DNA of 64,000 bases from Pseudomonadota bacterium (lineage in GTDB: Bacteria > Pseudomonadota > Alphaproteobacteria > Acetobacterales > Acetobacteraceae). Location: the NCBI GenBank assembly GCA_021845595.1, contig JAJZVV010000004.1:62001-126000 (forward strand), written 5' to 3'. How positions within the stretch are numbered: the first letter of the stretch is position 1; each line of letters opens with the position of its first letter. This document shows, in pieces, positions 54,831 through 58,961 of the stretch. The notes below the pieces were generated by a model. The model searched no databases and was not told the origin of the DNA. It saw only the letters and a program-made list of their open reading frames with translations. The translations under genes were made by a program, and so were the position numbers.

Positions 54831-55340
54831 ATGCATCCGGCCCGGGTCATCACCACCGGCCGGCTGGTGCTGCGCCCGGTCGGCTTCGCCGATCTGGCGG
54901 ATCTCACGGCGCTGAAGGCGGATCCGCGCGTGTTCGCGGTCATGCTGGGCGGAGTGCGCACGCCCGAGCGGACGGGCGAGGAGCTGGCCGAAGAGATCCG
55001 CTTCTGGGGCCAGCACGGCGTCGGGCTGTGGGCCGTGCGAGCGCGCGAAACCGGCGCCTTTCTCGGCATCGCCGGCGTGATGGAGCGGCCGGACGGGCTC
55101 GGCCTGGCGCTGCGGTTCGCGCTGTGGCCGGACATGCGCGGCCAGGGCCTGGCGCGCGAGGCGGCCGGCGCGGTGCTGCGCTACGCCCACGACATCGCCC
55201 GCATTCCGCGCATCGTCGCGGTGGCGCGCGAGGATAATTTCGCCTCCCGCACCGTACTCGGCGGCATCGGCATGATCGAATGCGGCCGCTTCACCCGCGA
55301 CGGGCACGCGATGCTCGTCTATGAGAGCCGCGCCTGCTGA
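54831..55340 (+). CDS. GNAT-family N-acetyltransferase
   Basis: 169 aa of the RimJ/RimL type: TTGRLVLRPVGFADLADL at the N-terminus, the acetyl-CoA-binding MRGQGLAREAAGAVLRYA in the middle and REDNFASRTVLGGIGM towards the C-terminus. Substrate unknown (protein N-termini or small amines). It overlaps no neighbour but is only 29 nt after ettA and just before pgsA, so it may be co-transcribed. Confidence 0.85.
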   Translation: MHPARVITTGRLVLRPVGFADLADLTALKADPRVFAVMLGGVRTPERTGEELAEEIRFWGQHGVGLWAVRARETGAFLGIAGVMERPDGLGLALRFALWPDMRGQGLAREAAGAVLRYAHDIARIPRIVAVAREDNFASRTVLGGIGMIECGRFTRDGHAMLVYESRAC

Positions 55341-55395
55341 TCGCCGCCTGCCGCCCGGTTTCCGCCGGGCGCCAAAACCCTCTATCCTGCGCCCG

Positions 55396-56004
55396 ATGCT
55401 GACCGATCTGCCCAACCTCCTGACGCTCTCGCGCATCGCCGCGATCCCGCTCCTGGTCGCCCTGGTCGCGGCCGGGCAGCCATGGGCCGATCTCGCCGCC
55501 TGCATCGTCTTCACCGTGGCCGGGATCACCGACTATCTCGACGGCAAGCTGGCCCGCGAATGGCGACAAATCTCCGATTTCGGCCGCATGCTGGACCCGA
55601 TCGCCGACAAGCTGCTGGTCGGCGCGGTGCTGATGATGCTGGTCGGCCGCGCGCGGCTGTCCGGCCCGGGCCTCTATCCCGCGGTCGTCATCATGCTGCG
55701 GGAGATTCTCGTCAGCGGCCTGCGCGAATATCTCGGCAGCGTTCGCGTCGGCCTGCCGGTCACACGGCTGGCGAAATGGAAGACCGGCGTGCAGATGGTC
55801 GCCCTCGGCACGCTGCTCGCCGGCGACAACACCGCCGCGCTGCTCGGGCTCGGGCGCCTGCCCGTCTCGACGATCGGCGAGGCGCTGCTGTGGCTCGCGG
55901 CGATTCTGACCCTGGTCACCGGCTGGGACTATCTCACCGCCGGGCTGCGCCATGCCTCCCCGTCCGCACGCCCGGCGCCGAGCGGGACCTCGCCGAGCCC
56001 ATGA
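55396..56004 (+). CDS. pgsA: CDP-diacylglycerol--glycerol-3-phosphate 3-phosphatidyltransferase
   Basis: 202 aa integral membrane enzyme making phosphatidylglycerol phosphate. The CDP-alcohol phosphotransferase motif DYLDGKLAREW...GRMLDPIADK is complete. N-terminus LTDLPNLLTLSRIAAIPLL is typical. ATG 55396 is used. The stop TGA (56002-56004) overlaps ATG 56001, the first of three tiny reading frames that link this gene to mobB. Confidence 0.93.
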   Translation: MLTDLPNLLTLSRIAAIPLLVALVAAGQPWADLAACIVFTVAGITDYLDGKLAREWRQISDFGRMLDPIADKLLVGAVLMMLVGRARLSGPGLYPAVVIMLREILVSGLREYLGSVRVGLPVTRLAKWKTGVQMVALGTLLAGDNTAALLGLGRLPVSTIGEALLWLAAILTLVTGWDYLTAGLRHASPSARPAPSGTSPSP

Positions 56005-56046
56005 AGCCGAGCCAGTGAAGCTGAGTCAGTGAAGCTGAGTCAGTGA
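56001..56046 (+). repeat. 14-bp tandem repeat with chained five-codon reading frames
   Basis: Units start at 56001, 56015 and 56029 (ATGAAGCCGAGCCA once, GTGAAGCTGAGTCA twice). A fourth partial copy, GTGAAGCT, forms the beginning of mobB at 56043. Because 14 is not a multiple of three, each unit reads as a start codon, four codons and TGA: MKPSQ, MKLSQ, MKLSQ. Each TGA overlaps the next GTG by 4 nt (GTGA), exactly as the pgsA stop overlaps the first ATG and the last TGA overlaps the mobB start. The result is a chain of four coupled re-initiation points. Confidence 0.85.
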
Positions 56047-56573
56047 AGCTACTGGGGCTGATCGGCTGGTCCGGCAGCGGCAAGACGACGCTGCTCACCG
56101 CGCTGCTGCCGCGCTTCGTCGCACAGGGGCTGCGCGTGTCCACGGTGAAGCACGCCCATCACGGCTTCGATCTCGATCGCCCCGGCAAGGACAGCTACCG
56201 CCATCGCGAGGCCGGAGCGCACGAGGTGCTGGTCGTCAGCGGCGTGCGCTTCGCCCTGCTGCACGAACTGCGCGGCGAGGAGCCGCCGCTGCCGGCGCTG
56301 CTCGCCCGGCTCGACCCGGTCGATCTCGTGCTGGTCGAGGGGTTCAAGACGCACGCCTTCGCCAAGATCGAGGTGCATCGCCCGTCGCTGGCGAAGCCGC
56401 CGATCTGGCCGGCCGAGCCCGGCGTCATCGCCGTCGCCGCCGACGCGCCGCCGGCGACGATGCCGCCCGTGCCGCTCTTGCCCCTCGGCGATCCGGCCGC
56501 CATCGCCGACTGGATCCTCGCCCGGCTTGCCGATTTGCCGTCGCGCGCCGATCTTTCCACTTCCGCACCTTGA
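56043..56573 (+). CDS. mobB: Molybdopterin-guanine dinucleotide biosynthesis adapter protein MobB
   Basis: 176 aa P-loop protein. LGLIGWSGSGKTTLLTALLP (Walker A) opens the chain; STVKHAHHGFDLDRPGKDSYRHREAGA and VDLVLVEGFK are typical of MobB. It assists MobA in attaching GMP to molybdopterin, giving MGD for enzymes such as formate dehydrogenase. It starts with GTG 56043 at the end of the 14-bp repeat chain. No independent ribosome-binding site is visible, so it may rely on coupling. Confidence 0.93.
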   Translation: MKLLGLIGWSGSGKTTLLTALLPRFVAQGLRVSTVKHAHHGFDLDRPGKDSYRHREAGAHEVLVVSGVRFALLHELRGEEPPLPALLARLDPVDLVLVEGFKTHAFAKIEVHRPSLAKPPIWPAEPGVIAVAADAPPATMPPVPLLPLGDPAAIADWILARLADLPSRADLSTSAP

Positions 56574-56681
56574 GCCGCGGGCAGGGGCTTGGCACAGTGC
56601 CGGTGCACCAGAGCACCGTCCGCCCTGACCAATCCATCACGCCGGACCCTGCTCCAGGCGAGCCAGATAGGAACCGACCGC

Positions 56682-57209
56682 ATGCGCCGCTCCGCCATCG
56701 TTCTTCCGCTGCTGCTCGCGGGCTGCGGCTTCGATGATTTCTTCGGCAACACCCACACGTTCCACGCCACGCCGAATGCACCGCTCGGCGAAAGCGAAAC
56801 GATGCTGAACGCGCGCGGCGTCATCACCGAGGAGGCGCCGCTGCAGCCGGAGCCGGGCAATATCTGGCCGGGCCCGATCAAGCCCATCCCAACCCTGAGC
56901 GAGCTCGAGCAGCAGGAAAACGAGGGGATGAAGAAGCTCCGGCCAATGGAGACACCGCCCGTCAAGGGTGCGCCGCCGCCCTCGGCCGGCCAGCCCGTGG
57001 TGATCCCGAACGGCGACGGCACCAGCACCGTCATCATGCCCGACGGCACCATCCGCACCATCCCGAGCGCCTCCACCAAGCCCTCCCAAGGCCAGACCGG
57101 AACCGGCAAGTCCGCGACCGGCAAGTCCGCACCGAGCAAGACCCTGCCCGACCAGCGCCCCGCGCCGGCCGACATGCCGGCGGGCGATACCGCCAAGCCG
57201 GCGCAGTAG
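56682..57209 (+). CDS. Proline-rich lipoprotein of unknown function
   Basis: 175 aa. A short signal MRRSAIVLPLLLAGC with lipobox LAGC marks it as a lipoprotein. The mature chain has PGNIWPGPIKPIPTLSELEQQEN, and a C-terminal Pro/Thr/Ser/Gly/Lys-rich region with GKSATGKSA and DGTSTVIMPDGTIRTI. No known domain. Probably envelope-attached. It is placed between mobB and moaD; a functional link to molybdenum cofactor genes is not evident. ATG 56682 with AGGA 10 nt upstream; the frame is open upstream but without conserved sequence. Confidence 0.8.
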   Translation: MRRSAIVLPLLLAGCGFDDFFGNTHTFHATPNAPLGESETMLNARGVITEEAPLQPEPGNIWPGPIKPIPTLSELEQQENEGMKKLRPMETPPVKGAPPPSAGQPVVIPNGDGTSTVIMPDGTIRTIPSASTKPSQGQTGTGKSATGKSAPSKTLPDQRPAPADMPAGDTAKPAQ

Positions 57210-57215
57210 CAGGCG

Positions 57216-57482
57216 ATGAGCGCGCCGTCGCTCCACATCCTGTATTTCGCCTGGCTGCGCGAGCGGCTCGGGCTTGGCGAGGAGTGCCTGATGCTCCCCG
57301 AGGGCGTGGACACAGTGGGCACGCTGATCGCCTGGCTACGCGGGCGCGACGACCGCTACGGCGCCATCTTTGCCGACGGGCGGGTGGTGCGCTGCGCCGT
57401 CAATCAGGAATTCGCGGGGCCGGACACGCCGCTCGCCGCCGGCGACGAGGTCGCCTTCTTCCCACCGGTCACCGGCGGCTGA
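57216..57482 (+). CDS. moaD: Molybdopterin synthase sulfur carrier subunit
   Basis: 88 aa ubiquitin-like protein ending in PPVTGG, whose C-terminal Gly-Gly is adenylated and thiocarboxylated. LHILYFAWLRERLG at the N-terminus and AVNQEF, LAAGDEVAFFPPV are usual for MoaD. It supplies sulfur to precursor Z in molybdopterin synthesis. Starts 6 nt after the lipoprotein stop, and moaE follows 1 nt after its stop. Confidence 0.96.
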   Translation: MSAPSLHILYFAWLRERLGLGEECLMLPEGVDTVGTLIAWLRGRDDRYGAIFADGRVVRCAVNQEFAGPDTPLAAGDEVAFFPPVTGG

Positions 57483-57483
57483 G

Positions 57484-57948
57484 ATGGCCCGGGTCGTCGT
57501 GCAGGAAGCGGCGTTCGACCTCGGCGCGGAATTCGCCGCCCTCACCGCCGGGCGCCGCGACATCGGCGGCATCGGCGCTTTCGTCGGCACGGTGCGCGAG
57601 CTGTCGGGAGGGCAGCGCCTGGAGGCGATGACGCTCGAACATTATCCGGCGATGACCGCCGCTTCCCTCAGCCATATCGCCGCCGAGGCAGAGCGGCGCT
57701 GGGATCTGCTCGGCTGCACGCTCATCCACCGCATCGGCCGGCTTGAGCCGGGTGCGCCGATCGTCCTCGTCCTCGCCGCCGCTGCCCATCGCGACGCGGC
57801 GCTCGCCGCCACCGGCTTCCTCATCGATTGGCTGAAGACCAGGGCGCCGTTCTGGAAAAAGGAATGTTTCGCGGACGGCGACGCGCACTGGGTGGAGGCC
57901 CGCGCCGAAGACGATGCGGCGGCGGCGCGCTGGAGCGAGCCGGGCTGA
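57484..57948 (+). CDS. moaE: Molybdopterin synthase catalytic subunit
   Basis: 154 aa. IGGIGAFVGTVRELSGG, MTLEHYPAMT, HRIGRLEPGAPIVLVLAAAAHRDAALAA and the catalytic-lysine segment KTRAPFWKKE are the MoaE hallmarks. With MoaD it converts cPMP to molybdopterin in the cytoplasm. ATG 57484 directly follows the moaD stop. The gene faces the rcnA-like gene across 44 nt. Confidence 0.96.
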   Translation: MARVVVQEAAFDLGAEFAALTAGRRDIGGIGAFVGTVRELSGGQRLEAMTLEHYPAMTAASLSHIAAEAERRWDLLGCTLIHRIGRLEPGAPIVLVLAAAAHRDAALAATGFLIDWLKTRAPFWKKECFADGDAHWVEARAEDDAAAARWSEPG

Positions 57949-57992: not shown

Positions 57993-58856
57993 TCAGCCGC
58001 CGAGCATCATCGCCGCGCGCACTGTGAGAACGACACCCATGCCGAGGATCAGCAGCGTCGTCGCCACCTGAACCCGGGTCAGCCAGACGCTGTCCAGCCA
58101 GCCTAGCACCCGCTCGCCGATCTTGGCCGCGATCACGCCGACGAGGGTGAGGGCGGCGGCGAAGCCGATGCTGAACACCAGCACCGTCAGCAGCCCCAGC
58201 ATGACGCGGCCCTGACCCACCGCGGCGAGCAGAATAGCCAGCGCCGTCGGGTCGGGCAGCAACCCGCCGGCGATGCTCAGCGTCAGCAGCACGCCGAGCT
58301 TGGGCCGGTTGTCGGTGATGACGTCCAATTGGTGCGCGTGCGCGCGGCCCCAGCCATGGCTGTGCCAGACCGCGCCACCGCCGGGCTCATGGTGGTGCGC
58401 GTGATCATGATCATACCCGTGCCCATGATCGTGCCCGTGGTCGTGCCCGTGGTCGTGACCATGATCGTGTCCATGGTCATGGTCGTGGTGATCGTGCCCG
58501 TGATGATGCGACTGGGCGGCGGGCGGCAGGCCGAAGGCGATCCGCACCAATGCAAGCTGCGTCCAGAGCATCCACAGCCCGAGCCCGACGACGAGCAGCC
58601 CCATGGCCAGCGCCAGATCGACCTCGATGCGCTGCGGCACGAGCCAGGCCGAGCCGATCGAGGCCGCCACGCCGACCATCACGATGCCGGACACGTGCGA
58701 CAGGGTCACGAATACGCCGAGAATGACGGCATCGATCGGCTTGCCGCGCGCGCCGACGATATAGGCCGCGGCAATGGTCTTGCCATGCCCCGGGGTGGCG
58801 GCATGCACCGCGCCGGTCCAGAAGCTGGACAGAAGATAGAATACAGTCTCTTTCAT
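57993..58856 (-). CDS. Nickel/cobalt exporter-like protein (NicO/RcnA family) with His-rich loop
   Basis: 287 aa with about six membrane helices. TGAVHAATPGHGKTIAAAYIVG, TLSHVSGIVMVG and PDPTALAILLAAVGQGR are NicO/RcnA signatures. Residues about 117-175 form a very His/Asp-rich cytoplasmic loop built largely of HDHG repeats, likely a metal-binding segment. It exports Ni2+ or Co2+, or a related metal. ATG 58856 is used; 58883 and 58931 are possible. The loop is encoded by a 12-bp tandem repeat (see the repeat entry). Confidence 0.86.
   Translation of the reverse strand: MKETVFYLLSSFWTGAVHAATPGHGKTIAAAYIVGARGKPIDAVILGVFVTLSHVSGIVMVGVAASIGSAWLVPQRIEVDLALAMGLLVVGLGLWMLWTQLALVRIAFGLPPAAQSHHHGHDHHDHDHGHDHGHDHGHDHGHDHGHGYDHDHAHHHEPGGGAVWHSHGWGRAHAHQLDVITDNRPKLGVLLTLSIAGGLLPDPTALAILLAAVGQGRVMLGLLTVLVFSIGFAAALTLVGVIAAKIGERVLGWLDSVWLTRVQVATTLLILGMGVVLTVRAAMMLGG
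58395..58508. repeat. Tandem repeat encoding the His-rich loop
   Basis: A series of about five 12-bp units encoding HDHG on the minus strand, with flanking degenerate copies rich in CATGATCGTG and CCGTGGTCGTG on the plus strand. Such runs can change unit number by slippage, which would alter the metal-binding loop length without changing frame. Confidence 0.7.
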
Positions 58857-58961
58857 GGACCATTCACTCCCTGCTGCGTTCATGCCCGTCCTGACGCGCC
58901 GAGTCCACCGGGCCGCTGCTCGCTTCCTCACCGTTCCGGGTTATCACGAGCCGACCCAGCC

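Follow-up and report, generated by a model that had tools for sequence, protein, structure and literature searches.

Can translation stay coupled between two neighboring genes when a tandem repeat separates the stop codon of the first from the start codon of the second? The question is raised by the junction of pgsA and mobB in a 64,000-nucleotide stretch of an Acetobacteraceae genome (assembly GCA_021845595.1, contig JAJZVV010000004.1; hereafter, the window). The two genes are neighbors on the + strand: pgsA (55396..56004, with the start taken from our own codon-usage gene finder) encodes a CDP-diacylglycerol–glycerol-3-phosphate 3-phosphatidyltransferase (TIGR00560, 144.1 bits against a cutoff of 109.1 on 55321-56004; PF01066), and mobB (56043..56573) encodes a molybdopterin-guanine dinucleotide biosynthesis protein B (TIGR00176, 155.5 bits against a cutoff of 76.2; PF03205). 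Across their junction, Tandem Repeats Finder delimits a same-strand array of period 14 bp (55992..56050), which, read directly from 56001, runs ATGAAGCCGAGCCA GTGAAGCTGAGTCA GTGAAGCTGAGTCA GTGAAGCTACTG. This DNA holds three five-codon reading frames, here called minicistrons, on the + strand at 56001..56018 (ATGAAGCCGAGCCAGTGA, MKPSQ), 56015..56032 (GTGAAGCTGAGTCAGTGA, MKLSQ) and 56029..56046 (GTGAAGCTGAGTCAGTGA, MKLSQ). The pgsA stop codon (TGA, 56002-56004) lies inside an ATGA at 56001-56004, where the first minicistron overlaps pgsA by 4 nt, and the same sharing of an NTGA between stop and start recurs at 56015, at 56029 and finally at 56043, where minicistron 3 overlaps the GTG start codon of mobB. 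A first-pass annotation of the window had described these three repeat-borne frames, with exact 4-nt overlaps all the way from the pgsA stop to the mobB GTG, and our reading confirms that description base for base. The mobB start is well fixed, because its frame is closed by a TGA at 56022, no ATG, GTG or TTG intervenes, and the P-loop follows only a few residues on. With the minicistrons disregarded, the gap from pgsA to mobB is 38 nt.

According to the accessible text of one study, termination–reinitiation (TeRe) coupling drops steeply with distance in E. coli and Haloferax assays, reinitiation in E. coli is almost gone at a gap of +38 nt, and reinitiation at two E. coli gene pairs needs no more of the upstream gene than its final 15 nt (PMC10666635). 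Since a five-codon frame amounts to 15 nt plus a stop codon, each rung of the array could plausibly support one restart, and we think it likely, from comparison of related sequences, that the array is a stop/start relay that preserves TeRe coupling over the otherwise 38-nt gap. The ancestral junction would have held the pgsA stop and the mobB start within a single GTGA, the usual 4-nt overlap for TeRe coupling; slippage would then have copied a 14-bp piece spanning the overlap, to give two units in one sister species and three in the window. Because 14 is one less than 15, the stop of every copy shares 4 nt with the start that follows, and a ribosome ending pgsA would reinitiate, translate five codons, terminate and repeat this cycle until it arrived at mobB. 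The relay would thereby keep a coupled junction coupled after its lengthening, whereas an out-of-phase duplication would leave both proteins intact and lose the coupling. We infer both this evolutionary history and the use of the relay by ribosomes. The earlier proposal that four reinitiations are needed to reach mobB holds as a description of the serial route, but not as an obligatory one, since a ribosome could skip units or start de novo at mobB.

Phase of tandem arrays at gene junctions

The first-pass annotation had also suggested that the repeat might be a neutral duplication of the mobB start region. On this account, a slippage event duplicated the junction, left both proteins intact and was followed by no selection, with the exact overlaps reflecting a 1-in-3 chance of unit length. 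The units do resemble locally made copies of the junction, and the phase of the window array, taken alone, would be just such a 1-in-3 event. Because a duplication across a 4-nt overlap spares both proteins at any length, however, a neutral origin predicts no dependence of such arrays on phase. We searched 200 genomes of the family for four NTGA motifs at a fixed spacing of 10, 11, 13, 14, 16 or 17 nt, and called an array joined when an NTGA held the stop codon of the upstream gene and an NTG started the downstream gene on the same strand, a rule fixed after the first arrays had been seen. The arrays examined were those among the matches listed, to which the counts in this section refer, and their selection was independent of joined status; among 178 such arrays, 104 were truly tandem and 74 were dropped for a unit identity below 0.7 or a shorter subperiod. 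The repeat number may be wrong in many of the surveyed genomes, which are fragmented or were assembled from metagenomes, and the window's own array stands outside the 67 in-phase arrays counted.

For periods congruent to 2 modulo 3, which preserve the overlap, joining at both ends was found in 15 of 43 arrays at 14 bp, 1 of 5 at 11 bp and 6 of 19 at 17 bp, as against 1 of 15 at 13 bp, 0 of 6 at 10 bp and 0 of 16 at 16 bp for periods congruent to 1. Pooled, 22/67 in-phase and 1/37 out-of-phase arrays were joined (Fisher p=0.00018), leaving 45 and 36 unjoined, respectively, and every link is a 4-nt overlap in 21 of the 22 joined in-phase arrays. Single periods show the same contrast (14 versus 13, p=0.046; 17 versus 16, p=0.022), as do alternative ways of counting. 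A strict count, which omits L340 and L412, gives 20/67 versus 1/37 (p=0.00065); L340 (18 nt) was included in the main joined count, and one unit of L412 ends in TAG with a 1-nt overlap with the next GTG, which breaks its 4-nt chain. A loose count gives 25/67 versus 3/37 (p=0.0011) by adding arrays that are joined in frame to a called downstream start 66-234 nt off (L315, L415 and L367 in phase; L319 and L490 out of phase). Arrays with a join at one end alone, whether downstream (such as L300, L309 and L428 in phase, and L506 out of phase) or upstream, were scored as unjoined. Even among arrays whose upstream end is joined, 22/44 in phase and 1/12 out of phase also meet the downstream start (p=0.0098).

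The near absence of out-of-phase arrays at joined junctions suggests that the in-phase ones are probably kept by selection on coupling, in support of the coupling that had been read into the window's overlaps. Neutral duplication stands as an account of how the units originated; it leaves the phase bias unexplained, and as a full explanation of the array we regard it as improbable.

The 22 joined arrays are spread over 17 genera and lie between differing gene pairs. By Pfam matches, these include several ABC transporter pairs as well as sliding clamp and RecF/SMC-like protein (L313), SAICAR synthetase and PurS (L465), SIS/CBS protein and LptC (L301), HlyD and AcrB (L411), type II secretion E and F (L418), and squalene/phytoene synthase and amine oxidase (L458). 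By eye, their units have nothing in common beyond NTGA, a feature that neutral local duplication also accommodates. In a phylum sample, for which the gene finder was run with family-trained codon scores, a period-14 match occurs in 69/289 genomes; the matches listed include 12 tandem arrays, of which 3 are joined with an intact chain (L509, L514 and L519, from other families of the same class). The sole out-of-phase joined array of the family survey (13 bp; L332, G037:C248) separates an Xre-type antitoxin from a RES toxin, a junction at which broken coupling might be tolerated or favored.

Conservation of NTGA within arrays was set aside as proof of selection, there being, by eye, too few substitutions. 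Many of the non-tandem period-11 matches (among L339-L368) consist of ATGACA/GTGACA at 11-bp spacing, which we take to resemble PhoB-type direct repeats and which are a confounder for scans of this kind.

The pgsA–mobB junction in related genomes

The genus of the window is represented in our collection by three genomes, G000 (which contains the window), G001 and G002, and these carry three, two and zero units, respectively, so that the comparison of unit number among close relatives proposed in the first-pass annotation does reveal variation. The G001 junction (L003) has two perfect units; in G002 (L004, apparently on the same contig as L043), the pgsA TGA and the mobB GTG share one GTGA with no units between them. 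Junction DNA identity to the window is 93% for G001 and 86% for G002, making G001 the nearer relative. Sister species with zero and two units suggest that the array grew through local duplication at a junction that was already coupled, the simplest history being a directly coupled ancestor followed by an approximately 14-bp tandem duplication across the overlap.

Variation in unit number within one genus is compatible with neutral slippage. The first-pass annotation had suggested a step-down attenuator of MobB levels; in this reading, selection on the number of units would reduce MobB compared with PgsA through the fraction of ribosomes lost at each reinitiation. Serial restarts would multiply any loss, which makes the idea possible, and the three species do differ in unit number; the discussion in the accessible part of PMC6728339 describes coupling efficiency as still to be quantified. 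Slippage predicts the same variation equally well, however, and arrays occur at many unrelated junctions with no evident shared need for reduced downstream output; we consider an attenuator of this type conceivable but doubtful. A structured RNA attenuator or riboswitch leader was rejected, as the region 55300-56700 of the window gave 0 matches to Rfam families at gathering scores and no terminator-like site was found at the junction in a weak consensus scan.

Beyond the genus, we collected 190 mobB loci, mainly from the window's family, and obtained 90 distinct junctions with a same-strand pgsA directly upstream; 67 distinct loci without a same-strand pgsA match, 33 repeated junctions and one locus with pgsA 362 nt off were left out of this count. 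The pgsA stop codon lies within ATGA, GTGA or TTGA at 52 of the 90 junctions. Among these 52, the overlap is directly in frame with mobB at 33, mobB is reached via one to three minicistrons at 15, which include the window and G001 and are linked solely by 4-nt overlaps, and neither holds at 4, so that 48/52 are direct or relayed. The remaining 38/90 junctions are non-NTGA, TGATG (one) or far (one). Twelve junctions carry a single minicistron, with unit lengths of 8, 11, 14 (three), 17, 20, 23 (two), 26, 38 and 47 nt, and this variety indicates that the cases are, for the most part, probably separate events. When one random base is inserted into the 19 non-direct NTGA spacers, the relay persists in 13% of trials, and when one is deleted, in 6% of trials, as compared to the 15/19 observed, a retention that argues against neutral duplication. 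Two further tandem arrays lie at the mobB start, one in L029 that is joined to pgsA and has a period of 11 bp, and one in L012 that has a period of 17 bp, with the pgsA stop upstream and unjoined; together with the 14 bp of the window's genus, all of these periods are congruent to 2 modulo 3.

Some junctions in this collection have other forms. At L017, L168 and L172, all from one genus (g50), there is no ATG, GTG or TTG at the conserved mobB start, and the likely start is the CTG of a CTGA that overlaps the pgsA stop. At L152 (G211), the mobB N-terminus contains an in-frame 12-nt near-repeat (CAGCTCCCC/CAGCTCCTC), a possible counterpart, with a length congruent to 0 modulo 3, that would lengthen MobB rather than create minicistrons. 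Elsewhere in the window's genome (G000:C49:173073-173118; L445), four ATGA motifs lie at 14-nt spacing in units that are not mutual copies. Both G001 (L435) and G002 (L433) share this chain, which lies immediately ahead of a gene with a product that presumably resembles a ComM/YifB-type protein. As no same-strand gene was found to end into the chain at these three loci, it looks like a leader form of the relay.

Signals that weigh against a relay

Several results count against the relay and have to be set beside those above. Among the tandem arrays examined, the upstream stop is joined more often in phase (44/67) than out of phase (12/37; p=0.002), a bias that the relay idea by itself does not require. 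Among the mobB junctions, NTGA and other pgsA stops show no significant modulo-3 contrast (p=0.37). The raw number of NTGA arrays at period 14 was rejected as evidence, since a reversed control pattern also favors period 14 (22 genomes) over period 13 (8 genomes) and heptamer arrays inflate the numbers.

The spacing of operon genes in general is similarly equivocal. Our survey covered 985 same-strand pairs in 1.97 Mb of stretches from the window's own genome (window included), its family and its class; genes in the comparison stretches were called by a home-made codon-usage gene finder, which recovered the window genes near pgsA and mobB. For pairs 5-60 nt apart with both an NTGA stop and an NTGA start, distances congruent to 0, 1 and 2 modulo 3 number 5, 4 and 23, respectively, and for pairs with other stops, 24, 20 and 28, such that the ratio of class 2 to class 1 is 23:4 in NTGA pairs versus 28:20 in controls (Fisher p=0.02). 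The later data alone (the second family set and the class) give an unconvincing 9:3 versus 15:11, and a generic excess of class 2 is present even where a relay is impossible. For these two reasons, the genome-wide spacing bias is suggestive only, and a tight modulo-3 law for all operon spacers was rejected. As regards chance occurrence, the window's is the only tandem array that spans a junction among the 468 same-strand pairs 5-120 nt apart in these stretches.

Signals at the junction itself leave room for other routes to mobB translation. The Shine-Dalgarno match at mobB is modest (-3.9 kcal/mol, against a genome median of -5.8), so that some independent initiation at mobB is possible. A separate promoter and ribosome-binding site driving mobB directly had been put forward as what would reduce the repeat to a chance duplication; here the outcome is mixed, as no promoter was found at the junction in a weak consensus scan and the modest Shine-Dalgarno match is present. 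Predicted Shine-Dalgarno energies at the last start show no significant difference among joined intact (21), other in-phase (46) and out-of-phase (37) arrays, and Shine-Dalgarno strength was accordingly rejected as a mark of joined arrays. In addition, the junction mRNA folds somewhat better than shuffled sequences (z=-1.84; 10/200 shuffles as good), with pairing that spans the array.

Structure of this kind could couple translation through unfolding instead: ribosomes crossing the minicistrons would keep the mobB start unstructured, and fresh ribosomes would initiate there with no chain of reinitiation, a scheme with which the weak Shine-Dalgarno match at mobB also agrees. Unfolding offers no clear reason for the exact 4-nt overlaps or for the period rule, however, and the likeness of Shine-Dalgarno energies in joined and out-of-phase arrays speaks against it as well; we judge this explanation to be unlikely.

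Known coupling systems and wider meaning

How does the array relate to systems already described? Its closest likeness is to the 4-nt-overlap pairs of TeRe studies (PMC6728339, PMC10666635), with which it shares co-directed genes and the way in which stop and start overlap within NTGA. The direct TeRe form is seen in G002 and at the 33 direct junctions among the 90 surveyed, and the overlap architecture recurs in relatives, directly in G002, through two units in G001 and at nearly all of the NTGA junctions (48/52). In their accessible text, these papers treat gene pairs, whereas the window array places three five-codon frames in series, with four reinitiations if they are used serially.

Mycobacterial interspersed repetitive units (MIRUs) are the other obvious comparison. 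As described in the accessible parts of the literature, MIRUs are likewise tandem units bearing an open reading frame (ORF), coupled to the next gene by a 4-nt overlap (PMC12548453), and units of 77 and 53 bp have been reported (PMC4213456), lengths that by our own arithmetic are also congruent to 2 modulo 3, like those of window-type arrays. The two differ in size, at 40-100 bp for MIRUs (PMC2734929) versus 14 bp for the window unit and 11-17 bp for similar arrays. They differ also in distribution, since MIRUs form a dispersed and apparently mobile sequence family in these sources (PMC12548453, PMC4213456, PMC2734929), whereas window-type arrays are locus-specific and locally duplicated. The window array has the ORF-bearing unit and the 4-nt overlaps but no dispersed copies: a search of the window genome (G000) with its 93-bp junction sequence gave one match, which shows that it is not a dispersed repeat, and units at other joined junctions look unrelated to one another by eye. 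Insertion of a MIRU, or of any other mobile or dispersed repeat, at the mobB start is thus extremely improbable.

Very short upstream ORFs are also known to act on a following gene in the axe-txe minigene, which alters translation of the next gene and for which frame and stop-to-start distance matter (PMC8708949), and in iraD, where a short ORF modulates the downstream gene (PMC5574718). As far as the accessible parts of these sources go, the axe-txe minigene stops 15 nt before txe with no overlap, unlike the overlapping frames of the window, and neither system contains a chain of several ORFs. A literature search with most subscription papers outside its reach found no tandem minicistron arrays described other than MIRUs; we therefore take the window array to be a new variant, minimal, locally made and non-dispersed, of 4-nt-overlap coupling or of the MIRU.

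Downstream of mobB (window 56682-57948) lie a lipoprotein-like gene without a Pfam match and then moaD and moaE, and the relay accordingly feeds a small molybdenum-cofactor cluster. Farther along, tandem repeats at 58395-58489 fall within a minus-strand ORF (57993-58931) and encode a long HDHGHDHGH-type histidine-rich stretch; by eye, the product is a membrane-like protein, perhaps a nickel/cobalt exporter.

A much broader proposal, which we advance only tentatively, is that fast-evolving ladders of coupled minicistrons are a general component of alphaproteobacterial operons: in-phase rungs of 11, 14 or 17 bp would be gained and lost by slippage, out-of-phase rungs would be purged, and the number of rungs would tune the ratio of downstream to upstream product, as a variable-number tandem repeat (VNTR) of translation. 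A working relay would mean that bacterial ribosomes can restart several successive times on frames of five codons, and this would bear on how post-termination ribosomes restart and on how local that restart is. The arrays offer a natural series for gauging the cost per restart, with zero, two and three units at one junction and units of 11, 14 and 17 bp elsewhere. Some operon spacers of tens of nucleotides may then consist of coupled minicistrons in series, each too short to be recognized by gene finders, and such hidden chains would affect censuses of operons and of translational coupling.
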